Positions 23,765-36,584 of a DNA stretch of 59,608 nt are shown one piece after another. The notes below the pieces were generated by a model. The model worked only from the letters and a program-made list of their open reading frames with translations. It was not told the origin of the DNA and did no database searches. The stretch is taken from assembly GCA_031254105.1 (NCBI GenBank), contig JAIRVB010000008.1, positions 1 through 59,608 of the forward strand. The letters are read 5' to 3'. The DNA comes from Chitinispirillales bacterium. GTDB lineage: Bacteria > Fibrobacterota > Chitinivibrionia > Chitinivibrionales > Chitinispirillaceae. The position numbers and the translations under genes are program-made. The number at the start of each line of letters is the position of its first letter. Position 1 is the stretch's first letter.

Positions 23765-26299
23765 ATGATGTCTAAATCCGGAAAAGACCTGAGCCTTATT
23801 GTAAGTTTAGTTTTGATTTGCGCGTTTTTTACGCTTGCGCATGAGTATAGCGGGACGGTAGTTGACCAGGCAACCGGAAATCCAGTGGAAGGGGTTTTTG
23901 TTTCTGTGGGGCACACAGAGCGCCATACCCGTACCGACGCGAACGGCAGATTCGTTTTATCAAAAAGTACTTCTATCGGGTTTAAGTCCCCTGCGCAAAA
24001 GGGCATGCAGATGAACGCGCGGTGGAATTTTCACAGGCGCACGCTTGATCTGGGCGGCGCTCCCGGAGTAACCTCGGCGGCTGTTTACAGTCTCAACGGC
24101 AAACGGCTTCTTAACAGTCAGGTTCCGTATTCAAGGCTTGTCTCTATGCCCTCATTGCCGGTGGGTATCTATATTCTTGAGCTTAAGGGAGACGGGGGGC
24201 TGCGCAGCAGCAGCCGGGTAGTTTTATCAAATAAATCTTCTTCATTTACCTTTAACTCAACGCGCGCTTCCGGTCAATTGCGTATCTCAGATAAATCCGC
24301 TCAAACTTTATCATCTTCGGAACGGCTCATTTTTCATCATGACAACTATTTACCTCTCAATCGTGATATGAGCGGCGCTGAGGCAAATATGCGCGTTTCC
24401 CTCAGACCTGATGAAAGAAGTTTTGTGTTTGACCAGACAAAGGTGCGCGAGTACCGTTTTACGATAAGTTCCGCTGATTCGATTTTTTTGGAAAATCAGG
24501 GGTGGCGTGAGGAGTATGTGCCGACTATTGATATGAGATTCAGGGACGCGTCCGCGTCTTTAGACTCATCTTTTGGAAAAGTAGGGCTTCGCTATAAAGG
24601 GTCAGATTATTCTCTGCCAAGATGTTTTGGCGATGGGAGCGGCATAAGACCGCCAAACGGTCCCAAGATATGCCCAAAGGTCTCCTTTAAGGTGAAATTC
24701 ACCCAGTACGACGAGAATAAACGGTTTTACGGGATGAAAAGAGTTAATCTGCATTCTATGAACGCCGATAACCCAAAGATGCGCGATATGCTTGCTTATG
24801 AGCTTTACAGGGAGATGGGGATACACGCTCCCCGCACAGCCTACGCAAATGTATATGTCAACAATGTGCACATCGGCCTTTTCATAGCTGTGGAAGAGAT
24901 TGACGGACGGTTTACCAAGTCAAGATGGCCGGCTTACGGGGACGGCAACCTTTACAAGGAGGTATGGCCGACCTCCTCTTCGCAAGGTCATTACCTTAAC
25001 GGCCTTGAGACGAATAATGACCCGGGCGACAATCCCAACGTACAGAGGATGGTTGATTTTTACAACGCGATCAATTCTTCAAATGAAGGCAGCTTTGCAC
25101 AGAATCTCTCTTCATATATGGATTTTGACCATTTTCTGCGTTACATGGTTGTAGATGTAGCCATTAACAATTGGGATGGCATCAGAGGATGGTATTCCGA
25201 CAGGACTGCGCTGATGTGGGCGGGCAACCATAATTTTTTTATTTACGAAGAAGAGAATCCGGGAGGCAAAATCTGGCTTGTTCCCTGGGATCTGGATAAT
25301 ACTTTTTATGATATTTGTCCCTATTTTGAAGCTGCGGGAGTACCGCAGTGGAACGAAACTCCGGCGCATTGCGCGGGATACCAGGTTGGGGTTGATAGTT
25401 ATATCAGAGCCCCGAATTGCGATAAACTGACCCAAATGATGGCAGCTGTTTTCTGGGATCGCTACGTGCAGTTTGGAACGCAGTTTCTTAATGATCAATT
25501 CAGAAGCCAGCGTGTGATTGATAAGATAAACAGGCACGCACAGCTGATTTCGCCGCATGTTACCGCTGATCCTGTACTCAGTCACTTATCATGGGCATCT
25601 GAGGTTGAAAGGCTTAAAGGATATATTCCAAACCTGGCGGTAAAGTTTTCAAATCATCTGCATTCCATAAAATCGGAGATAGATTCAAGCGGTTATGGTG
25701 ATCCTTATACAGGAGGCAGCAGGTTTCTGAGTCCTGTTCTGCTCAATAATTTTGAGTTTGCTCCTGTAGTAGGCGCTGTTGACTGGGTGCAGATGTATTA
25801 TTCCCAGAACAGCGAAACTTCTGTTGCGCATAATACACAAAATCCTCTTTCCGGCACGGCTGATCTGCGCTTTGATTTTACTTTCAGGTCAACGAATAGT
25901 CCAGGCGCATGGGATGTATGGAACAATTTTCAGCCGGGATTTCAAACGGCCGTGGATTTTTCTGATCTAAGAGAGATTCAAATTACTCTTCGCGCAGACA
26001 GGGCAAGAACAGTGAGAATCGCTCTTGGCAACTATTCTGTTTACAGCGCTGCCGGCGCGTCCAGTGAATACGGTTGGGAAATTACAGCTCATGCTGAGAA
26101 ACAAACATTGATTCTCAGCATGCTTGATCTTAAATATCCTGATTGGGCGGATAGAAAACCTGACATAAAAGCAGAGGTACTCAAATCTGTCAGAACACTT
26201 ATCTTTTCACCCAGCGCGCAGATGAACAGTAGCGGATTTCTGACTGCTGATCCTGATGTTGGTTTTTTGCGGGTGGACAATATCAGATTTGTTTATTAA
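23765..26299 (+). CDS. Secreted CotH kinase-family protein, multidomain
   Basis: An 844-aa protein. Signal peptide 1-25 (LSLIVSLVLICAFFTLA); carboxypeptidase-regulatory-like beta domain ~27-68 (SGTVVDQATGNPVEGVFVSV); a sorting-tail-like beta domain placed inside the protein at ~103-155 (AAVYSLNGKRLL...LPVGIYILEL); CotH kinase domain ~225-620 with KVSFKVKF, RVNLHSMNADNPKMRDMLAY, NVYVNNVHIGLFIAVEEID and the metal-binding PWDLDN (507-512). The C-terminal ~650-844 is a beta-sandwich resembling a carbohydrate-binding module. CotH proteins are secreted kinases of spore coats or surface proteins. First gene of the surface cluster. Confidence 0.85.
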   Translation: MMSKSGKDLSLIVSLVLICAFFTLAHEYSGTVVDQATGNPVEGVFVSVGHTERHTRTDANGRFVLSKSTSIGFKSPAQKGMQMNARWNFHRRTLDLGGAPGVTSAAVYSLNGKRLLNSQVPYSRLVSMPSLPVGIYILELKGDGGLRSSSRVVLSNKSSSFTFNSTRASGQLRISDKSAQTLSSSERLIFHHDNYLPLNRDMSGAEANMRVSLRPDERSFVFDQTKVREYRFTISSADSIFLENQGWREEYVPTIDMRFRDASASLDSSFGKVGLRYKGSDYSLPRCFGDGSGIRPPNGPKICPKVSFKVKFTQYDENKRFYGMKRVNLHSMNADNPKMRDMLAYELYREMGIHAPRTAYANVYVNNVHIGLFIAVEEIDGRFTKSRWPAYGDGNLYKEVWPTSSSQGHYLNGLETNNDPGDNPNVQRMVDFYNAINSSNEGSFAQNLSSYMDFDHFLRYMVVDVAINNWDGIRGWYSDRTALMWAGNHNFFIYEEENPGGKIWLVPWDLDNTFYDICPYFEAAGVPQWNETPAHCAGYQVGVDSYIRAPNCDKLTQMMAAVFWDRYVQFGTQFLNDQFRSQRVIDKINRHAQLISPHVTADPVLSHLSWASEVERLKGYIPNLAVKFSNHLHSIKSEIDSSGYGDPYTGGSRFLSPVLLNNFEFAPVVGAVDWVQMYYSQNSETSVAHNTQNPLSGTADLRFDFTFRSTNSPGAWDVWNNFQPGFQTAVDFSDLREIQITLRADRARTVRIALGNYSVYSAAGASSEYGWEITAHAEKQTLILSMLDLKYPDWADRKPDIKAEVLKSVRTLIFSPSAQMNSSGFLTADPDVGFLRVDNIRFVY

Positions 26300-26430
26300 A
26301 TGAAGCATATATAAAGATCAGAGAAAAGATGTCTTATCATGGCAGGTTTGAAACAGTAAAAACTTTAACCTAAAGCAATATAAATTCTCGAAAGAGCTAT
26401 GCTTAGATATCCATTAAACCGCAATATGAA

Positions 26431-26700
26431 ATGGTTGAAATGGTTAAATATGTTAAGGGCGCAATATGTTGGGGAGAGAGTAAAAATTTTTCCCTCATCA
26501 GAGCTTTCGCGCTAACAGTTATCTCCATAAGTTCATTCGCCCAAACGTTTTCTGAGTTCAAATTTACTGCCGCTGAAGTTGGAGTGAAGACTTTACCGGC
26601 GTAATTGACAATCAAAATCCAACTGTTACGCTTACAACTCAAAGATGAATTGAAAACATCGTGCGGATGCGGGCGGCGTTTATTGGTGCGGCAAGGAAAA
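26431..26700 (+). pseudogene. Frameshifted remnant of a secreted protein
   Basis: The frame from ATG 26431 or 26440 encodes a signal peptide (NFSLIRAFALTVISISSFAQ) followed by TFSEFKFTAAEVGV, then hits a stop at 26602. In the next frame the sequence continues as EDFTGVIDNQNPTVTLTTQR and, past an in-frame TGA, IENIVRMRAAFIGAA. These pieces look like the N-terminus of one exported surface protein cut by a frameshift and a stop. It lies in the 545-bp gap between cotH1 and the beta-helix gene. Confidence 0.5.
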
Positions 26701-26732
26701 GGTATCGCTCATTATAGGGGTAAAGTAATTTC

Positions 26733-26761
26733 TTGACATGTTGTTCACATTGTATTATTTA
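26733..26761 (+). promoter_or_regulatory. Sigma70-type promoter of the beta-helix/VTC run
   Basis: TTGACA (26733-26738), a 17-bp spacer and TATTTA (26756-26761). It lies about 85 bp upstream of the beta-helix gene and gives a leader of about 75 nt. Confidence 0.6.
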
Positions 26762-26845
26762 TAGATAATAGCCGGCAGCGTGCGTATATATGTCAGTTTT
26801 GGAAAATCCCGCAAAATAATTAAAGACAGTGGAGATTAAGGTATT

Positions 26846-28225
26846 ATGAAGCATCGCAGAACATCACTTTATTCGCCGTTTATTTTGGCGGCTGCGCTCA
26901 TTCAAACGCTTCTGTTGTTTTGTGTGGATAATCCTATAAATAGAGAGGATCTCGACGAGTCGGAGTGGCAGCCTGAGCTTCCGGTTTACGTAGAGCCGTC
27001 TGTTCCGGATGGTTTGAACAGGGACAGAATTGATTTGGGGATTGAGAATGCCATAGTTATCAATTGGGGTTCGGAAAAAGTAGTTGATATTCCCGAAAAT
27101 TTATCTGTTGAGTTCGATCTTAACGGCGGGCATGTTATTATGCGGAGCACTTCTCCTATCGTCAATGGCATAGATGTTGTGTTGAACGGCGTGACTAAAA
27201 ACGGATCGCTCAAGATTTATGGCAATCAGAGAATCAGAGGGGTCAGGCTTTATCTTAATGGTGCGGATATTACTAATCCCGTCGGTCCGGCAATAAGTTT
27301 TCCTGTAAACGACAATATAAGCAACAATATAGACTCCGTATCGGTCAATTTAGTAGGCGGGGGAGGCCGGAGGAATATTTTGGCTGATGGCGCCAATTAC
27401 GCTGCGCTTCCCGACAAGGAGTCGGCCAAGGGTACATTTTTCAGCGAAACCCAAGTCGGATTTCGGGGCGAGGGGTCTTTGGAAATACGCTCAAAGTACA
27501 GGCACGCGATAGTCGTCGATAACAATTTTAAGATGACAAGCGGGAATATTATAATATATGAATCGGTTGGCGATGGAATACACGTCAACAGAGAGATACT
27601 TGTGCAGGGTGGGACATTGCAAATTAAGAGCTCTGGAGACGCGATCCAGAGCGAAGGGAGAACAGTCAGGAATGATATTAATATCAGCGGCGGCAAATTG
27701 ACATTATGGACTACAGGCATAAAATCTCACGGTATAGCGTCCGATTCAGGTGATGTGATAATAGGCGGCAGTACTGATATTAAGATGACGGTTTTGGGTG
27801 ACGCGTCAAAGGGGATAAGGTCAAGAAGAAGCGTGAACATCACAGGCGGCAAACTTGATATTACCACATACGGGGATATAGATATAACTCCCGCTCACCT
27901 CAGCGAAGATGACGACGCCACAAGTTCGGCTGCCGGAGTAAGGGCTCATGTCAATTTTTTCATGTCCGGCGGCGAACTGAGAGTAAAGAGCTTTGGCGAG
28001 AACTCCAAAGGTATAAATGTTGACAAAAACGCTGAAATACTCGGCGGTGCTGTAGATATTAAATCGCACGGAGACGGCATTAAGGTAGACGGAGATCTTA
28101 TTATTACCGGGGGTAAAGTTACTACACAATCAAGTGATAAAAAAGGTATTGACTGCAAGGGCTGTAATGGCGAAAGTTATAAGCAGGGCGGTACAGTAAC
28201 AAGTACTGACAGGACTAAGTGGTAA
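26846..28225 (+). CDS. Secreted beta-helix protein, carbohydrate-binding type (Cthe_2159-like)
   Basis: A 459-aa exported protein. The N-terminal hydrophobic segment (ILAAALIQTLLLFC) is signal-like; a Cys follows LLLF, not a standard lipobox. The body repeats short beta strands with the pattern GDGIHVNREILVQGGTLQIK, SGDAIQSEG, GDASKGIRSRRSVNITGGKL, NSKGINVDKNAEILGGAVDI and GDGIKVDGDLIITGGKV, the parallel beta-helix rungs of the polygalacturonate-binding Cthe_2159 family. In many bacteria this family stands beside CotH, VTC and DUF4956 genes, as here. It probably sits on the cell surface and binds a polymer. The VTC gene starts within a few bases of its stop. Confidence 0.8.
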   Translation: MKHRRTSLYSPFILAAALIQTLLLFCVDNPINREDLDESEWQPELPVYVEPSVPDGLNRDRIDLGIENAIVINWGSEKVVDIPENLSVEFDLNGGHVIMRSTSPIVNGIDVVLNGVTKNGSLKIYGNQRIRGVRLYLNGADITNPVGPAISFPVNDNISNNIDSVSVNLVGGGGRRNILADGANYAALPDKESAKGTFFSETQVGFRGEGSLEIRSKYRHAIVVDNNFKMTSGNIIIYESVGDGIHVNREILVQGGTLQIKSSGDAIQSEGRTVRNDINISGGKLTLWTTGIKSHGIASDSGDVIIGGSTDIKMTVLGDASKGIRSRRSVNITGGKLDITTYGDIDITPAHLSEDDDATSSAAGVRAHVNFFMSGGELRVKSFGENSKGINVDKNAEILGGAVDIKSHGDGIKVDGDLIITGGKVTTQSSDKKGIDCKGCNGESYKQGGTVTSTDRTKW

Positions 28226-28233
28226 TATATCAG

Positions 28234-29094
28234 ATGAAAGATCAGGTTTTAGACAATCTATCCGCTTTTTCGCGCTCCTCACTTAAGGAAGCCAAAACAA
28301 TGGCGTTTTTAAACAGATTTGATACCAAATTTGTGTTGAAGAACAATATGGTTTTTCATTTTTTAGAAAAAATTCAAAAAGACTATTCTGTACTTGATAT
28401 AAGCGGCACAGTAATTCAGAGCTATAATACGGTTTATTTTGATACTCCGGATCTGCTTTGCTTTAACATGCATCACAATAAAAGAATGAACCGTTTTAAG
28501 TTTCGCACCCGTAAATACCTGAGCAACGGTAAAACGTTTAATGAAATAAAGCGCAAACTCAACACAGGCAAAACTGTAAAATTCCGTCAACGCAGGGATG
28601 GACTTGAGGGTATAGTTTCAAAAGCCGGTGTGGAGGCGCTTCCTCCGCTGCGGGATTTGAGTGATTATGATGAACACTTTGAATCTTTAGTGCGCCAAAA
28701 CGGTTACGGCTTTGTCGGAGAGCTTATACCGTCACTGCATGTTTATTTTAACCGTGTAACTTTTCTCAACAAGCATTTTCCGGAGAGGATGACGCTTGAT
28801 TTTGGTTTGGGTTATGGGTATAACGGTATGGATTTGATGCTTCCCAACACGGCTATAGTTGAACTGAAGAGAGAAAAGGGGCCGCAAAGAACTCTTTCGC
28901 AAAATTTTTTCCGCGGTATCTGCAAGGAGCCCAGCGGTTTTTCTAAATATACGATAGGAATTTCATTGACTCACGCGGAAGCGAAGAAAAACCGTTTCCT
29001 GCCCAGGATAAGACATTTGGAAGTTGGCAGAATAAAAGAATCGGAATTTGAAAGGAATGTTGCATGTCCGCAAGAAGCAGTAACAGCAGGATAA
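28234..29094 (+). CDS. VTC-domain polyphosphate polymerase-type protein
   Basis: A 286-aa cytoplasmic protein. FLNRFDTKFVLKNN, YNTVYFDTPDLLCFNMHHNK, RFKFRTRKY, EIKRKLNTGKT and TAIVELKREKG form the tunnel of basic residues and acidic metal ligands expected of VTC4-like polymerases, which make polyphosphate from ATP. The upstream GTG 28219 is possible, but ATG 28234 begins the conserved part better; neither has a strong ribosome site, so coupling to the beta-helix gene is likely. The 3' end overlaps the DUF4956 gene by 31 bp. A VTC-plus-DUF4956 pair recurs across bacteria next to CotH genes, which suggests polymer export or use at the surface. Confidence 0.82.
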   Translation: MKDQVLDNLSAFSRSSLKEAKTMAFLNRFDTKFVLKNNMVFHFLEKIQKDYSVLDISGTVIQSYNTVYFDTPDLLCFNMHHNKRMNRFKFRTRKYLSNGKTFNEIKRKLNTGKTVKFRQRRDGLEGIVSKAGVEALPPLRDLSDYDEHFESLVRQNGYGFVGELIPSLHVYFNRVTFLNKHFPERMTLDFGLGYGYNGMDLMLPNTAIVELKREKGPQRTLSQNFFRGICKEPSGFSKYTIGISLTHAEAKKNRFLPRIRHLEVGRIKESEFERNVACPQEAVTAG

Positions 29095-29924
29095 TTGTCC
29101 TGACTGTTCTTTTAAGTGTGTTAGCCGCTTTACATTTCACATCGGGAGCTTTCCCGATCCCCATGGAGATGATGGGCGCCGAGGCTCCGGCAGGTATCGA
29201 TACCGATGGCGCGCCTGAAGAACCTAAAGTCAAAATTGTGAAATCTCAAAGTGAAAGCGGCACACCAGGGCCTCAGGCGGGTACTGGCTCACCTGCCGGA
29301 AAAAAACGCTTCCTTGACATGAATACCCTGTCTCTGTATTTCGGTGAGAACGACTGGAATTTTATAGGTTTGATGACATTGCGTTTTGTCATTAACATAC
29401 TCTTCGCTTATATCATCATCTCTTTGATCTATGCCCGTGAGCATCGTATAAAAGAGTTATCGTTTAGTTTCTTTGTATCAAATATTCTTATTTTTATGGT
29501 AACATCGCTTTTAGCTTCCGTAAGGGTGAGAACAGGTTTTGCCTTTGGCTTGTTCGCCATTCTGTCGATTTTGCGCTACCGCACAGAACAGATCCAGATA
29601 CGTGAGATGACATTTCTTTTTGTGTCCATAGTCCTTGGCGTAATAAACTCGCTTGCGACAGCTGAACTTACTATTTTTGCGGTTTTATGGGCTAACGTTA
29701 TCCTGTGTATCTGCGTTTATCTCTGTGACCATATCTTTATGGGTCACACCGACCAGATTATTTTAATTTATGATAATACCAGGCTGCTGGGAAAAGGGAT
29801 GAAACAGGAGCTGCACGAGGATATAAAAAAGCGTTTCGGGTATGAAGTAGTAAAGGTAGTTATAATGAAAATGAATTACCTGACCGACAGCGCTGAGGTC
29901 AAATTGGTATACAGACGTCAGTAA
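29064..29924 (+). CDS. DUF4956 membrane protein
   Basis: A 286-aa inner-membrane protein. A signal-like helix (~10-28) is followed by a Gly/Pro/Glu-rich periplasmic linker (~30-85). Membrane helices occur at about 103-125, 133-152, 157-172 and 185-225, with GFAFGLFAILSILRYRTEQIQIREMTF as the best-conserved part; the cytoplasmic C-terminal domain (~235-286, HTDQIILIYDN) is an alpha/beta fold. DUF4956 proteins accompany VTC polymerases and are suspected partners for polyphosphate handling; this is inference. AAGGA precedes the ATG, inside the VTC gene. Its last codons form the first unit of the tandem repeat at 29904. Confidence 0.82.
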   Translation: MSARSSNSRIIVLTVLLSVLAALHFTSGAFPIPMEMMGAEAPAGIDTDGAPEEPKVKIVKSQSESGTPGPQAGTGSPAGKKRFLDMNTLSLYFGENDWNFIGLMTLRFVINILFAYIIISLIYAREHRIKELSFSFFVSNILIFMVTSLLASVRVRTGFAFGLFAILSILRYRTEQIQIREMTFLFVSIVLGVINSLATAELTIFAVLWANVILCICVYLCDHIFMGHTDQIILIYDNTRLLGKGMKQELHEDIKKRFGYEVVKVVIMKMNYLTDSAEVKLVYRRQ

Positions 29925-30078
29925 CGGCATACCCACATTATAAATATATAGAAACGACCTGTTGGTATACAGACGTCAGTAACGGCATACCCACATTGTA
30001 AATGTATAGAAACGACCTGTTGGTATACAAACGTCAATAACGGCATATCCAACGTTGTAAATGTATAGAAACGGCTTG
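29904..30078. repeat. 58-bp tandem repeat, three units, starting inside the DUF4956 gene
   Basis: Units start at 29904, 29962 and 30020 with TTGGTATACAGACGTCAGTA (the third diverges: ACAAACGTCAATA) and run through a conserved CGGCATA...TGTATAGAAACG. The first unit contains the last codons and stop of the DUF4956 gene, so the array was copied from its 3' end outward. Units 1 and 2 are nearly identical, unit 3 is older. Confidence 0.85.
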
Positions 30079-30081
30079 TAG

Positions 30082-30102
30082 GGAACGACCAGCGGTCGTT
30101 CC
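30082..30102. repeat. Dispersed palindrome, GGAACG type, copy 1
   Basis: GGAACGACC-AGC-GGTCGTTCC, preceded by GTA-G. A second copy with compensating changes (GGAACGGCC-GGC-GGCCGTTCC) is at 55306-55326. The pairs A/T and G/C change together, which shows conserved pairing. Confidence 0.65.
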
Positions 30103-30201
30103 GCACACCACGCGTCCATGTTACGTTTGGGTATACAAAAATAATGAATAACAACATATTAACGTTAACGTTATATTAATGTTTCAGCGAGGATATCAAT
30201 A

Positions 30202-31566
30202 ATGACAGCCCCAAAAACAAAAATCACCGCCATCCTCATCAGTGCGTTGTTTACCGCTAATATGGTTTTTGCCGAAACCGCAGATGAACCGGTATCACCC
30301 GACACCGAAAATGCCGTTGAAATAACCGGTGAATCAGTAGATTCCGAGGCCCAAACCATCGCAGAGAATACTGATGAACCTGTACAACCTGAAAAAGAAG
30401 CCGCAGCCGGGGCTGTTACCGAATCCGCTGAGTCCTCAATCGAAGCTGCTGAGGATGCCGTCGAGTCGTTTGCGCCGTCCAAAACCAAAGTCCAAAACAA
30501 AATCGTTGATAAACCTTCCGGTGAGTCCGCCAAACCTAAAGCCAAGACCAAAAAATCCTCAAACGAATCCGCGGCAAGTGAGAAAAACGTTCCTGTGAAG
30601 GAGGAAACGAGATTCAAAATGAGCGGTATTCTGGAATCCGGCGTTGACGTTATCACCAGGGTAAGAACGAACAGAAAAGATGAAACAGAGGTGAGAACTG
30701 TGGCCCGCGGGGAGATCGATATTTCCGCGCGTCCGGCAAGAGGAATAAGGGCGGAGATCGGAATTGAGTATGATCAAAGAGATACGTTCATCACGATAGA
30801 CAAATTTTACGGCCAGTACAGCATCCCTGACGCGGGCGTGCTGCGCGCGGGTATCATGAAAAAAGCGTTTGGCCTTGAGGAGCGGGCGGGATTGGATGAA
30901 CGCTATTTTCGCCGCCGCTCAATAATAAACTCAGGTCTGGAGGATGATGGTTTTTTAGACCATGACCTTACACTCCAGTACCGTCACAATGTGGGCGTTA
31001 ACTGGCGCTTCATCGGAGGATTTTCGATGTCTGCGGCGCTTTTAAGCACTAACGATGAGTTAACGGATACCATGCGTTACTTCCAAAACTACTCAGCTCA
31101 CTATCAAACCGGAAATATGGATGTGATCGCCGCCGCGGTGATCCAGCATTTTGTCCCCAAAGAGTGGTACACGACTACCTTTGCCGCTTCTCTTTCCTGT
31201 AAATACGCAGTGAAAGAATGGTGGATAAGCGAATCTGAGCTGACTTTCGGCACTAACACAGCCGCAAAAATTCGTCAAGATGAGGAGCAGTTTATTTTCG
31301 GCATAAGACAGCAGGAACTGTTCCCTATAAACACTGGTTTAAAAACATTAAGCCGGATTATCCCTGTAGCGGAAATCGCTCTTTACTGGGATGATCTTGA
31401 AAACGGTTATTATGAGACGCAGATAAGGGGCGGCTTAACTTTTGGTTTAGGTAATAATAACGCGTTTCAGTTCAGGAACGCTTTCGAAACGCGCCTTAGA
31501 ACTCAGAATGGGGAGACTAGTGTCAGAAGGTACCGTTACGACAGTGAGATTGTTGTGATTTTTTAA
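30202..31566 (+). CDS. Outer-membrane porin-like protein with acidic linker
   Basis: A 454-aa protein with a signal peptide (KITAILISALFTANMVFA, cleaved near 25). Residues ~26-135 are a low-complexity Glu/Ala/Pro/Lys linker; from ~140 onward a barrel of alternating strands resembles phosphate-selective porin (OprP-like) proteins: GYGQ-type pieces FYGQYSIPDAGVLRAGIMKK, then AFGLEERAGLDERYFRRR. The C-terminus ends RYDSEIVVIF with terminal Phe, as in barrel-assembly signals. GAGGA precedes the ATG. It lies between the VTC/DUF4956 pair and a second CotH gene, so it could pass an anion or polymer across the outer membrane. The substrate is not shown by sequence. Confidence 0.65.
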   Translation: MTAPKTKITAILISALFTANMVFAETADEPVSPDTENAVEITGESVDSEAQTIAENTDEPVQPEKEAAAGAVTESAESSIEAAEDAVESFAPSKTKVQNKIVDKPSGESAKPKAKTKKSSNESAASEKNVPVKEETRFKMSGILESGVDVITRVRTNRKDETEVRTVARGEIDISARPARGIRAEIGIEYDQRDTFITIDKFYGQYSIPDAGVLRAGIMKKAFGLEERAGLDERYFRRRSIINSGLEDDGFLDHDLTLQYRHNVGVNWRFIGGFSMSAALLSTNDELTDTMRYFQNYSAHYQTGNMDVIAAAVIQHFVPKEWYTTTFAASLSCKYAVKEWWISESELTFGTNTAAKIRQDEEQFIFGIRQQELFPINTGLKTLSRIIPVAEIALYWDDLENGYYETQIRGGLTFGLGNNNAFQFRNAFETRLRTQNGETSVRRYRYDSEIVVIF

Positions 31567-31646
31567 GCAGGGCATAAACGGTTAGCTGGGATTTACTATT
31601 AATCGATCAATCCATGATGTCAATAAACTTATAAAAGGAGGCAGTT

Positions 31647-33314
31647 ATGGGACGTATAACTCTATGGTCAACGTTCATCGTAATGACAGCATGCGCCGCC
31701 GTATCTGCTGCTGTTCCGACTATAAGGATCACCGCTCATAACAATCAGATGCCAACAGCTGCTCAAGTCAACGCCAACCACTGCGTTGCGTCTAACGGTA
31801 CAAGCGGTATGAATATTTTTCTGACACCTTACGTTGCTGTTACGCAAGTTGAGGTGAGCGGCGCAAGCAATCCGGCGCATAACTTTACAAGAACGACGTC
31901 GGCAAACACGGGCGCGTCGATGGATTCTTTAAGGCGTCGCGGAAACTCTACCGCTACCGCGGGCAAGATACCATTCAGGATAAAGTTCGATAAAAAGGTA
32001 TCTATGTTTGGCCGTCCATCGGCAAAGAGCTGGACGCTTTTGGCCAACTATTACGATCCCACATTCATGCTGAACGCTATTGCGTTTGAACTTGGCAAAC
32101 GCATGGAACTTGAATATACGCCGAACTTGTTCTTTGTAAATTTGTACGTCAACGGCAATTATCAGGGACTCTACCAGTTTACCGATCAGATCCAGGTCGG
32201 CGAAGCCAGCGTGAACATAGATAAGGATTTTGACTGGCTGGCGGAGTTTGACTACCACTGCCCCAACAGCGCTGCGGACAGACTGAGATATTTCCATACC
32301 GGAAACGATGGATATAACATAAATGTAAAAATAAGGTCGCCGGAGTTGGATGAATTACCATTAGTAAATGGTTTGCCGGATACGTCATTAGTGACATACC
32401 GTGCTGTAAAAAATGATATCAATACATTAATCAACAGGATGAGCGCAAGCGGATTTCCTGAGAATGGCTACCGCGACCACATTAATCTTGAAAGTTTCGC
32501 CAAATACGTATTGATTCAGCTTCTTATGGATAATTATGATTTTAACGTAAAAGCTGAGCCAGGCAGATTATTAGGTTCAAATTACACATACAAAGAGTAC
32601 GGAAAGAAAATAAAGGCAGGCCCGCTTTGGGATTTTGACCTGGCCGCGGGCGTGGGCAATGATATGACATTCTCACATTTCAATAATTACACTGATATGA
32701 TAAGGCCCACCCACGCCTTTTACCTGAGGCTTTGGGAAGACCCCGTATTCCTGGCAAAATACAAAAAAGCATGGGACGCCAGTCAAAATCACTTCAGCGC
32801 CATGCACTCTTTTATAGACTCGCTGTCTAACCTTTTGTCAAGCAGCGTTGAGGGTTTTGGGGGTAATGTGTCAAACTCCGGTCCCTGCTCCGGCTTTGAA
32901 ATGATGGGAATGTGTATGGGTACCAAAGGCCCTCTTACCCAAGCAATATTTAATTCGGAGGTTGCGAAACTTAAAACCTGGTGGACTAACCGCGTGACCT
33001 ATTTTGGTCAGCAAATAAACAATATGAACATAGATACCAGTGTAGATATCCCTGATGACCCTGTATCTGCAGTTACAGGAGCGAATTTTAAAAGCTTCAA
33101 AAAGATGACTGCTGTCAGAAACGGTATAAATCTGAGAGTTGCCCAAAACGCGTTTATCAAAGTTTTTAATTTGAGCGGCCGTGAGGTACGCAGTATGCGA
33201 TTTAAGAGCGGAAATCATTCTGTAAATCTGGGCGGTCTGCCTAAGGGTGTGTACATGGTGAAGGCCGCGGTTGACGGGGAGAAGCAGGTTTTGAGGGTTT
33301 CTTTTTCAAAATAA
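31647..33314 (+). CDS. Secreted CotH kinase-family protein with T9SS-like tail
   Basis: A 555-aa protein: signal peptide 1-22 (LWSTFIVMTACAAVSA), then the CotH domain ~70-430 with RRRGNSTATAGKIPFRIKF, SWTLLANYYDPTFMLNAIAF, NLYVNGNYQGLYQFTDQI and the metal site GPLWDFDLAAGV (~330). C-terminal ~475-555 ends in FIKVFNLSGREVRSMRFKSG, then NLGGLPKGVYMVKA, close to the type-A sorting tail of type IX secretion substrates; such tails are abundant in Fibrobacterota. AAGGAGG gives a strong ribosome site at the ATG. It shares the CotH fold with the 23765 gene but lacks the extra N- and C-terminal domains, so the two probably act on different partners. Confidence 0.85.
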   Translation: MGRITLWSTFIVMTACAAVSAAVPTIRITAHNNQMPTAAQVNANHCVASNGTSGMNIFLTPYVAVTQVEVSGASNPAHNFTRTTSANTGASMDSLRRRGNSTATAGKIPFRIKFDKKVSMFGRPSAKSWTLLANYYDPTFMLNAIAFELGKRMELEYTPNLFFVNLYVNGNYQGLYQFTDQIQVGEASVNIDKDFDWLAEFDYHCPNSAADRLRYFHTGNDGYNINVKIRSPELDELPLVNGLPDTSLVTYRAVKNDINTLINRMSASGFPENGYRDHINLESFAKYVLIQLLMDNYDFNVKAEPGRLLGSNYTYKEYGKKIKAGPLWDFDLAAGVGNDMTFSHFNNYTDMIRPTHAFYLRLWEDPVFLAKYKKAWDASQNHFSAMHSFIDSLSNLLSSSVEGFGGNVSNSGPCSGFEMMGMCMGTKGPLTQAIFNSEVAKLKTWWTNRVTYFGQQINNMNIDTSVDIPDDPVSAVTGANFKSFKKMTAVRNGINLRVAQNAFIKVFNLSGREVRSMRFKSGNHSVNLGGLPKGVYMVKAAVDGEKQVLRVSFSK

Positions 33315-33375
33315 TAATGCAGAATATTGTGCTTTTTCTATTCAAAGTCCGCTTTTCAAAGGAATAGTTTCATAA

Positions 33376-34206
33376 ATGAGAAGGCTTTTTTTCATGTTTA
33401 TTATTTGTTATGTATGCCGTGCTGCTGCTGACGGGATTTTTGAGCCTTTGGACGGTGAAGGTACAACCAAATCCTATTTGACTGCCGGCGGAGTTCCATG
33501 GGGGTTCGCGCAGCTTAGTTTGCAGCTTGGATCACGCGCGTTTCAGAGTGACGACAGGCCTTTTAAATTAGGACTTATTCACGATGGCGGTTTGGATACA
33601 AGTTGGATAAGCGGTAAACATTTTCTCAAAAACGGAAAGTTAAACTGGGGGGTTGGGTTTAATCTTGAAAGTAGTATCTATCTGCCTCTGCACTATAGTT
33701 TTGGTTTTGATTTCAAGTTCGGCGCATTCAACAGAATGGGTTCTGGTTTTGGAGCAGGCCTCAATCTGCCGGTAATAAAAGATCTTATGTGGCTGCAGAT
33801 TAAATCAGATATTATGTTTGCTATGGGCAGCGCCGCGTTGGGATCTTTTTCTGACGATTATGTTCTGATCGACGGAAAGACGATTAAAACCTGTGAGGCA
33901 GCCACATCAATGGCTTATTTGTTTGCCCGCCCTGAGTTAAACGGCTATTACCGCATAGGTAAGCAGATGCTGTTAATGGCAGGCACCGGGTTTCAACTGC
34001 CTTTTTGGTCAGGCTTTGATTTTAATTTTAAATCAAAGTCCGGTTTTTTGGACTTTATTTTTGGTATTGAGAAAGAAGAGGTAACTCTCGAAACTAATTC
34101 ATCAAGTGTAATTTTTGAGCTTGATGGAAAAAAAGTGAGCAGTATCAATGTTTCTGCAAAAGGGTTTATCTTCAATGCCGCTGTTGTTTTTGAGTCTAAC
34201 TGGTAA
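33376..34206 (+). CDS. Probable outer-membrane beta-barrel protein
   Basis: A 276-aa exported protein (signal-like MRRLFFMFIICYVCRAAA) made of amphipathic strands rich in Gly and aromatics (VGFNLESSIYLPLHYSFGF, FGAFNRMGSGFGAGLNLP) and ending in FESNW, a terminal aromatic residue typical of barrels folded by BamA. I cannot name the family. It lies 61 bp after cotH2 and 18 bp before the lipoprotein gene, in what looks like one operon. Confidence 0.6.
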   Translation: MRRLFFMFIICYVCRAAADGIFEPLDGEGTTKSYLTAGGVPWGFAQLSLQLGSRAFQSDDRPFKLGLIHDGGLDTSWISGKHFLKNGKLNWGVGFNLESSIYLPLHYSFGFDFKFGAFNRMGSGFGAGLNLPVIKDLMWLQIKSDIMFAMGSAALGSFSDDYVLIDGKTIKTCEAATSMAYLFARPELNGYYRIGKQMLLMAGTGFQLPFWSGFDFNFKSKSGFLDFIFGIEKEEVTLETNSSSVIFELDGKKVSSINVSAKGFIFNAAVVFESNW

Positions 34207-34224
34207 ACAAATAGCAGTCTGAAT

Positions 34225-35217
34225 ATGAAAAAACTGTTTTTGATATCAGTTTGTGTATGCGCGCTTGCGTTCGCAAGCGGGTGTGTTGTTTTTTCTCATG
34301 TTCTTGGCGGTCCGAGTACAAATATTGATCTGAGTTATGTCAAATATCCGGATAAGAAGTTCTGCCACTTTGACAGTATTATGAATATCGCTGTTTTATC
34401 TTTTAAAAGTTTCCGGGAAGTAACTTCTGATTCCGTATCTAACTGGGATTATATCGGACCGGAGCGCAGCGACCTTCCTCTGGCGCAAATTACAAATGAT
34501 TTAAAAGCAAAACTTAAGCGGCGTAAAGAGTTTAATGTTTTCGGGCACGGTATAACACCTGAGAAGCGGCCATCTGTTCATATGGTGATTTTTGGCGTAA
34601 TAACTTACTTTAATATCAGTTCCGATGCATATTTCTCAACATTCAACATCGACAATGGGAAGGTGTGGCGTGAATATGAAGCCAAACAGCGCGGTCTGCT
34701 TTCTATCAATTATTATTTTGTCAATTCTGAAAACTGGGAAATACTGCATATTGAAGAACTTAACAAGGGCCTTATAAGAACAACCGAAGGACACAAAAGC
34801 AAGGAAGAAGCCTTATCGAGCGTGAAAGGTAAAGATAAAATGCGTGATGCGCTAATCAGTCAGATTAACAGTGATTTAATAACCGCGTTCTTGCCGGTTG
34901 ATGTAAAAGCCAGTTATGCCTTAGCGACAATCAGGGACAACAGGTTATTTAAAAAATCAGTCACCGCGGCAAAGAAAGGCGACTGGAAAACCGCTGTAGA
35001 AATCTGGGAACGTTTTGAGGATGAAAATCCGGAAGAAGCTTATTATAACAAAATGCTTTATAAAAGGTACATCCGGCAGGATCTTGACGGCGCTATTGAG
35101 TATCTGTCAACGGCCTATAATAAAACAGGCAATACGGTTTTTTTGAAATGGTCCACAAAGTTTAAAACAGAAAAAGAACTTGAGGATAAATACAGGAACT
35201 CCCTGCCGGAGCGGTAA
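34225..35217 (+). CDS. Lipoprotein with CsgG/GNA1162-like and TPR-like regions
   Basis: A 330-aa lipoprotein: the signal ends in the lipobox FASGC (Cys 20). Residues ~45-210 include NIAVLSFKSFREV and a long alpha/beta region resembling CsgG- or GNA1162-type periplasmic lipoproteins that assemble at the outer membrane. Residues ~230-320 contain two TPR-like helix pairs (KSVTAAKKGDWKTAVEIWER, AIEYLSTAYNKTG). The lipoprotein at 37342 shares its general plan (lipobox, then AVMPFES). It is the last gene of the surface cluster. Confidence 0.6.
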   Translation: MKKLFLISVCVCALAFASGCVVFSHVLGGPSTNIDLSYVKYPDKKFCHFDSIMNIAVLSFKSFREVTSDSVSNWDYIGPERSDLPLAQITNDLKAKLKRRKEFNVFGHGITPEKRPSVHMVIFGVITYFNISSDAYFSTFNIDNGKVWREYEAKQRGLLSINYYFVNSENWEILHIEELNKGLIRTTEGHKSKEEALSSVKGKDKMRDALISQINSDLITAFLPVDVKASYALATIRDNRLFKKSVTAAKKGDWKTAVEIWERFEDENPEEAYYNKMLYKRYIRQDLDGAIEYLSTAYNKTGNTVFLKWSTKFKTEKELEDKYRNSLPER

Positions 35218-35345: not shown

Positions 35346-36584
35346 CTAAAGTTTCATTCGTGAAATGACCAGTTCGCGAAACTCCTGCGCCAGCGCTGAT
35401 TCCGGTTCTACCATCAGTGTTTTTTCGCAGTATTCGAGCGCTCCGGGGTAGTCTCCGATTTCAAAATAGAGTCTTCCGAGAGCGAAGAGGGCTTCTACAT
35501 GAAAAGGGTTTATCTCAACGCAGGTTTGGAGCGCTTTCAGGGCTTCGGCGTTGTTGTTAAGGACACGGTTCACAATTCCCAGGTAATAGAGGGCTCTGCT
35601 GTTTTTGGGTTCACAGATGACCGCTTCCTGAAAATTGGTCAGGGCCTCGTTGAAGTTTGACTGTGAGAAGTTTGCTACCCCTTTGTGAATAAGTACGATA
35701 GTTTTGATGTTGGGAGCGACATCCTGTTCGAGAATTTTTGAGTAAATATTTACAGCTTCAGGAAAATCCTTTTCGTTATGCGCGCAAAGCGCCTCAAGGA
35801 GCATTTCGTCCATGTTGTCGGCGCTGACCCCCATGCCGCGCTGACTTGATATACGGATATATTTTTTCCCTTTGGCTGCCGTGACTGTCAGCCCCGGCTT
35901 ATGTTCCTCAAGCAGATTTACGAAGGAGTGACGGCGCTTATCAAGCTCGCCGTGAAGCTGACGCTGGTATTCACGGATCTCCTGAAAAATAATATCGGAT
36001 AGACTCAGATTGGCGTTGAGAGCGGCGAGCTTTCTTCTAAGCGGTTCATCAAGCGGGGTTATCTGGTTATTGTTTTTGTAAATCAGCTCATGTTCCACTT
36101 CCGCCCAGGCGTCCTGCAAAAATGTTCTTATCTGCACCTCCGCGAACTTTAATTTAAGCCGCGGACAGCTTTGGAGGATCTCCCGCGGGATTTCGACCAC
36201 CAGGTGAGTAGAGCTGTAGCCAAACTCTCTGAATGTATGCTGCGCTCCCTTATATTCTACCTCATGAACATTGAACGCTTTCCTCAGGCAGCTTTCTACA
36301 TGATTGACATCTTCTAAAAACGGACAGACAACTCTTGTACCCAGGATATCGTGAATCGGGAGCTGCTCCCCGGTCTTTTTCTCATCAGTCACTCGTTTGA
36401 GAAGTTTTCCGTAATATGACGGAAACTCTTTTACCCTGTACTTAACGCCAAAGTGCACGGTAAGTACGCTGAGCGCCTCTTTAAGCTTTGCCTGAAACGC
36501 CTCAAGAGTTACATTGTAGTGGGGAAGCTGCTCTGTATATTGCTGCTGAAGTTTAAGACGGTCCGGGTATAAAGAATTGCTCAT
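35346..36584 (-). CDS. RelA/SpoT-domain (p)ppGpp synthetase fused to TPR repeats
   Basis: A 412-aa protein. The N-terminal ~30-230 is a RelA/SpoT nucleotidyltransferase: VKYRVKEFPSYYGKLLKR, PIHDILGTRVVCP, FGYSSTHLVVEIP and EVQIRTFLQDAWAEVEHEL are its conserved blocks. No HD hydrolase or ACT domain is present, so it is a small alarmone synthetase type. From ~265 to the end it carries tetratricopeptide repeats (LTNFQEAVICEPKNSRALYY, ALKALQTCVEINPFHVEALF, GALEYCEKTLMVEPESALAQ), which would bind a regulating partner. Convergent with the lipoprotein gene at 34225. Confidence 0.85.
   Translation of the reverse strand: MSNSLYPDRLKLQQQYTEQLPHYNVTLEAFQAKLKEALSVLTVHFGVKYRVKEFPSYYGKLLKRVTDEKKTGEQLPIHDILGTRVVCPFLEDVNHVESCLRKAFNVHEVEYKGAQHTFREFGYSSTHLVVEIPREILQSCPRLKLKFAEVQIRTFLQDAWAEVEHELIYKNNNQITPLDEPLRRKLAALNANLSLSDIIFQEIREYQRQLHGELDKRRHSFVNLLEEHKPGLTVTAAKGKKYIRISSQRGMGVSADNMDEMLLEALCAHNEKDFPEAVNIYSKILEQDVAPNIKTIVLIHKGVANFSQSNFNEALTNFQEAVICEPKNSRALYYLGIVNRVLNNNAEALKALQTCVEINPFHVEALFALGRLYFEIGDYPGALEYCEKTLMVEPESALAQEFRELVISRMKL

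Follow-up and report, generated by a model that had tools for sequence, protein, structure and literature searches.

A 59,608-nucleotide stretch of a Chitinispirillales bacterium genome (contig JAIRVB010000008.1 of assembly GCA_031254105.1; hereafter the window), from a sample that we take from its codes to be a termite-gut metagenome, carries at positions 26846-33314 a core of genes encoding a Cthe_2159-type beta-helix, a VTC-domain enzyme, a DUF4956 membrane protein, a 16-strand porin and a CotH kinase (one to four in this arrangement), in that order, together with a genus-specific CotH gene upstream. Comparison across genomes supports this core, porin included, as a single co-inherited surface or envelope unit, and we hold with high confidence that the cassette genes form one functional unit. 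Taken as a whole, the core and the upstream CotH1 may be best explained as an envelope-spanning, synthase-dependent secretion cassette, a reading to which we give about even chances. The open reading frames (ORFs) concerned, and two that follow them, are:

23765..26299, (+) strand: CotH1, with an N-terminal carboxypeptidase-regulatory-like domain and a CotH kinase domain (Pfam CotH, 4.4e-47)
26846..28225, (+) strand: Cthe_2159-type secreted beta-helix of a carbohydrate-binding family (Pfam PF14262, 3.7e-42)
28219..29094, (+) strand: VTC-domain cytosolic enzyme (polyphosphate-polymerase-type, TTM) with a GTG start (Pfam VTC, 2.7e-23)
29064..29924, (+) strand: DUF4956 inner-membrane partner (Pfam, 1.4e-41)
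30202..31566, (+) strand: outer-membrane barrel of 16-strand porin fold, Porin_O_P related (Pfam, 25.0 bits; cut-off 20.9)
31647..33314, (+) strand: CotH2, a secreted CotH kinase with a C-terminal type IX secretion system (T9SS) type A sorting domain (Pfam CotH, 3.3e-35)
33376..34206, (+) strand: barrel-like secreted protein, outside the cassette (no Pfam family)
34225..35217, (+) strand: lipoprotein, outside the cassette (no Pfam family)

An earlier note on this DNA had read these eight ORFs as one surface system. All eight were recovered on the (+) strand at the positions it proposed, and Pfam domains matched its two CotH proteins, beta-helix, VTC, DUF4956 and porin-like barrel. VTC runs to 29094 and DUF4956 begins at 29064, which is exactly the 31-bp overlap that had been noticed, and the Cthe_2159 and VTC ORFs share 7 bp. 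The description of the gaps as short holds for those of 80, 61 and 18 bp, but not for the 546 bp between CotH1 and Cthe_2159 or the 277 bp between DUF4956 and the porin. A promoter and terminator scan did not clearly find operon boundaries. Within the gap after CotH1, positions 26430-26700 hold a decayed ORF with an exported-protein-like start (RAFALTVISISSFAQTFSEFKFTAAEVG), its frame interrupted by stops.

We then turned to the distribution of these genes among 151 Fibrobacterota genomes. VTC was present in 121, DUF4956 in 119 and the two together in 118; three genomes had VTC alone (one of them cut by a contig end), one had DUF4956 alone, and 29 had neither. CotH was encoded in 119 of the 121 genomes with VTC, versus 6 of the 30 without it. 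The arrangement seen in the window, Cthe_2159-VTC-DUF4956-porin-CotH(1-4), which we refer to as type A, recurred in full order in 14 further genomes, its carriers being the window genus, a sister genus and a distant Fibrobacterota group (‘Fibrimonadaceae’). Cthe_2159 stands in front of VTC in most type A loci; it is missing from two more families, which keep VTC-DUF4956, the porin and CotH. Because the order repeats in so many genomes, a chance arrangement is excluded by far. Spacing can be tighter than in the window: in locus L037, Cthe_2159 and VTC are separated by 0 bp, VTC and DUF4956 overlap by 4 bp, and 3 bp lie between DUF4956 and the porin. Strong matches to the porin were present in 21 of the 151 genomes, and in 20 of these the gene lay within about 2.5 kb of VTC/DUF4956, while in the remaining one the contig carrying DUF4956 breaks off. 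This adjacency in 20 of 21 genomes is why we count the barrel as part of the unit, and the core genes of the system proposed earlier, porin-like barrel included, proved linked rather than scattered. The CotH1 position upstream of the core was seen only within the genus (the window and its genus-mate G072), and an orthologue of CotH1 adjoins the cassette in L026.

The commoner form in Fibrobacterota, type B, reads (CotH)-DUF4956-HlyD-OEP(TolC)-VTC, usually with an LTD protein next (HlyD, OEP and LTD assigned by Pfam), and its order was the same in 15 of 15 loci read. Neither an ABC nor an RND pump was recognised among the genes of the type B operons read, suggesting that DUF4956 occupies the place of the inner-membrane component there. 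That two unrelated outer-membrane conduits, one of them export-type, adjoin the same VTC/DUF4956 pair is our main ground for favouring outward transport over uptake. In G033, the type B operon is immediately preceded by a gene for an NhaA-type Na+/H+ antiporter (L044:10674-12182, (-) strand). Related arrangements were found in other phyla: VTC-DUF4956-Porin_O_P-like-CotH in Spirochaetales loci L093, L094 and L097, CotH-VTC-DUF4956-barrel-like in Spirochaetales loci L095, L096 and L102, VTC-DUF4956-barrel-Cthe_2159 in a deltaproteobacterium (L104), and VTC-DUF4956-DUF2490 in a member of the Chitinophagaceae (L101). Of about 16 loci from these other phyla, 8 had a barrel or barrel-like gene after DUF4956, and several others had no adjacent barrel.

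Pairwise identities point to a probable lateral transfer of the whole cassette between these lineages. The window VTC shares 62-66% identity with its counterpart in the distant group (genus g34), and 19-24% with type B VTC of the same family. For MurE, taken as a housekeeping control, the corresponding values are 39-41% with the distant group and 55-62% with those same-family genomes. It is the contrast of 62-66% for VTC with 39-41% for MurE that makes lateral movement probable, on a pairwise comparison that assumes equal rates. DUF4956 (60-70%) and the porin (40-52%) parallel VTC in their identities to the distant group.

To place the VTC protein we relied on an alignment profile, as single window proteins compared with the PDB by phmmer gave chance matches only. 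A profile of 31 VTC proteins matched yeast VTC4 (3g3q) at 3.5e-12, and in this alignment VTC4 residues K200, R264, R266, K281, K294, R361, R373, E426 and K458 each correspond to a conserved position of the bacterial VTC. The numbering of the VTC4 chain was checked against the residues named in the study of that complex, in which R264, R266 and E426 were the residues altered to inactivate VTC (PMC9911596). We looked for a tunnel without its basic residues, the case that the earlier note had set against its own reading, and found the tunnel residues intact. Since the catalytic-tunnel residues of VTC4 are kept, a polyphosphate polymerase is plausible, and polyphosphate is the probable product. 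Pfam found neither an SPX domain nor a VTC1-type membrane domain in the 291-aa window VTC. PPK1 was not found in the window genome, and the genus-mate has it; across the survey PPK1 occurred in 29 of 121 VTC genomes versus 21 of 30 without VTC (Fisher 5e-6, a statistic that ignores relatedness).

DUF4956 is predicted by AlphaFold2 (pLDDT 77) to have five transmembrane helices and a C-terminal beta-alpha-beta-beta domain, the latter weakly resembling ACT-like domains in a fold search. A likeness of its membrane core to MgtC is conceivable. AlphaFold2 models the porin as a barrel of 16 strands whose third loop is long and folded. Its fold matches in the PDB are the general trimeric porins PorB and Omp32, with OprP and OprO further down the E-value list (TMq 0.54, 12-13% identity). 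The sequence alignment with OprO is weak (E 0.31) and ends at loop 3; in it, the OprO counterparts of a conserved KK that opens loop 3 of the window porin are not basic. The model thus supports a 16-strand porin but not phosphate selectivity. Of the phosphate-porin-like barrel proposed earlier, the Porin_O_P match (25.0 bits) and the 16-strand fold stand, but PorB and Omp32 match as well and an OprP-type ladder is not demonstrable. The N-terminal stretch of the porin (30202-30600, about residues 21-134) is disordered and charged, and its length is highly variable among relatives.

Judged by their sequences, CotH1 and CotH2 are CotH kinases with invariant catalytic-type aspartates: D471 and D509 (CotH1 numbering) are invariant across 16 sequences, and both window proteins keep them. 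T9SS-type sorting, also proposed earlier, is clear for CotH2, whose residues 496-550 form a T9SS sorting domain (TIGR04183, 28.4 bits; cut-off 23), but CotH1 has only an internal match to TIGR04183 below the cut-off. The window genome encodes SprA.

The inclusion of the second barrel and the lipoprotein in the system did not hold up. Homologues of the second barrel were found in three other genomes of the family and of the lipoprotein in two, and both are absent from genus-mate G072. The two homologues are adjacent in G036 and G026, on contigs other than any VTC contig, and G026 lacks VTC, DUF4956 and CotH altogether. On these grounds we judge the two genes not to be cassette members; they (33376-35217) are an independent two-gene unit that lies downstream by happenstance. 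Beyond them, on the (-) strand, 35346-36584 encodes a 412-aa protein in which a RelA/SpoT domain is fused to a TPR array.

In the mechanism that we propose for the secretion cassette, the cytosolic VTC would polymerise phosphate from ATP, as its intact tunnel residues suggest. In yeast VTC, polyphosphate synthesis is coupled to translocation through a basic membrane channel, and DUF4956, in translational overlap with VTC, might in a comparable way to the yeast membrane domain thread the nascent chain across the inner membrane. The porin-fold barrel would then provide the outer-membrane passage, a role that HlyD and TolC may fill in type B, judging by the exchange of genes. At the surface, the Cthe_2159 helix could bind or scaffold the polymer or plant polysaccharide, and CotH kinases exported by the T9SS may phosphorylate surface proteins, possibly, though this is speculative, with the exported polymer as phosphoryl donor. 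We lean slightly towards export of a polymer across both membranes. That this polymer serves CotH as phosphoryl donor we consider unlikely, and the most complete version of the scheme, a two-membrane polyphosphate secretion machine with interchangeable outer-membrane conduits that supplies phosphoryl groups to secreted CotH kinases in surroundings that lack ATP, is likewise doubtful.

Several observations weigh against an envelope-spanning export cassette. In G079 and G083 C35 the arrangement is VTC-DUF4956-CotH with no adjacent outer-membrane conduit, and several Bacteroidota VTC-DUF4956 loci also have none beside them. No phosphate ladder is demonstrable on the porin. PPK1 is also present in many type A genomes, and the contrast in its occurrence takes no account of phylogeny. 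Fold and profile searches of the PDB returned nothing significant for DUF4956, and because it has no solved relative there, its role as a channel is one that we infer. Finally, the CotH assays found in the literature used ATP only.

The same genes can be read in other ways. One is that VTC-DUF4956-CotH is an accessory module of exopolysaccharide or adhesion, modifying or regulating a surface polysaccharide or a glycan-binding protein, with the barrel and Cthe_2159 binding carbohydrate or letting it through; VTC may then use a substrate other than phosphate. Such a module has precedent, as the Pel loci of streptococci and clostridia come with CotH-PPP-DUF4956-DUF4832 and those of bifidobacteria with CotH-PPP-DUF4956 (PMC7112168), a CotH gene of Clostridium perfringens NELoc-2 has VTC genes and a glycosyltransferase nearby (PMC2879425), and Cthe_2159 itself belongs to a carbohydrate-binding family. 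However, a Pel link sought through PelG was not found in the window genome, the conserved core has no glycosyltransferase, and the phosphate-tunnel residues of VTC are kept, so that we regard this explanation as rather improbable, although it is the strongest of the three considered here.

Uptake and storage, in which phosphate or polyphosphate enters through the barrel, is stored by VTC and then serves CotH, draws on the above-cut-off Porin_O_P match and the presence of OprP and OprO among the fold matches. The fold match is, however, unspecific for phosphate porins and an OprP-type ladder was not demonstrable; type B pairs VTC/DUF4956 with the export-type HlyD and TolC, and no uptake gene recurs in the cores read. 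The uptake direction suggested earlier is weakened by these points, type B in particular favouring export, and we give it little probability. It is also very unlikely that the neighbourhood is a loose one, with VTC-DUF4956 an independent inner-membrane unit and the porin, Cthe_2159 and CotH merely co-regulated surface genes. Some genomes do have VTC-DUF4956 without porin, Cthe_2159 or barrel, but the near-zero gaps of L037, the gene order shared by distant Fibrobacterota and by another phylum, and the discordant ancestry common to the cassette genes, porin included, all speak for a unit.

If the secretion-cassette reading is right, it bears on several proteins at once. CotH kinases work outside the cytosol, and the conserved association of a polyphosphate-type polymerase with an inner-membrane partner and an outer-membrane conduit makes a concrete candidate for their extracellular phosphoryl supply. 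For the spore coat, the origin of the ATP used by CotH has been called an unanswered question (PMC7821199). The cassette also offers a clue, from gene context and structure, to DUF4956 and proposes an exit route for the VTC product from diderm cells. BT3498-99 of Bacteroides thetaiotaomicron, tabulated as a single DUF4956-DUF2490 unit (PMC10434189), is a candidate model operon.

Envelope-spanning versions of CotH-VTC-DUF4956 look new: we found no description of outer-membrane forms in a literature search that left most subscription journals and all preprints outside its scope. A CotH protein, with no mention of VTC, is also described for the Zetaproteobacteria sfz stalk cluster (PMC8250860), which is a different system. 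The closest known set is the CotH-PPP(VTC)-DUF4956(-DUF4832) accessory module of Gram-positive Pel loci, whose task is unsettled (PMC7112168). In both, a CotH kinase, a VTC-type polymerase and DUF4956 are adjacent and co-inherited; unlike it, the window genome is without PelG, no DUF4832 or pel genes were recognised nearby, and the diderm cassettes add an outer-membrane barrel (or HlyD and TolC) and Cthe_2159. With the eukaryotic VTC complex (Vtc1/Vtc3/Vtc4; PMC9911596) the cassette shares a TTM polymerase, the same tunnel residues and a membrane protein partner, but the partner in the window is a five-helix DUF4956 with a C-terminal globular domain, and no SPX or VTC1-type domain was recognised. 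The window barrel resembles OprP and OprO in its 16-strand porin fold, long folded third loop and weak Porin_O_P match, yet it is only 12-13% identical to them in the fold search and general porins match equally. Synthase-dependent systems secrete polysaccharides such as alginate and cellulose, and the plan of these systems and of HlyD/TolC tripartite exporters, a cytosolic polymerase, an inner-membrane component and an outer-membrane conduit, is akin to that of the cassette, except that the cassette polymerase is VTC-type rather than a glycosyltransferase and that, in type B, DUF4956 replaces the usual ABC or RND pump.

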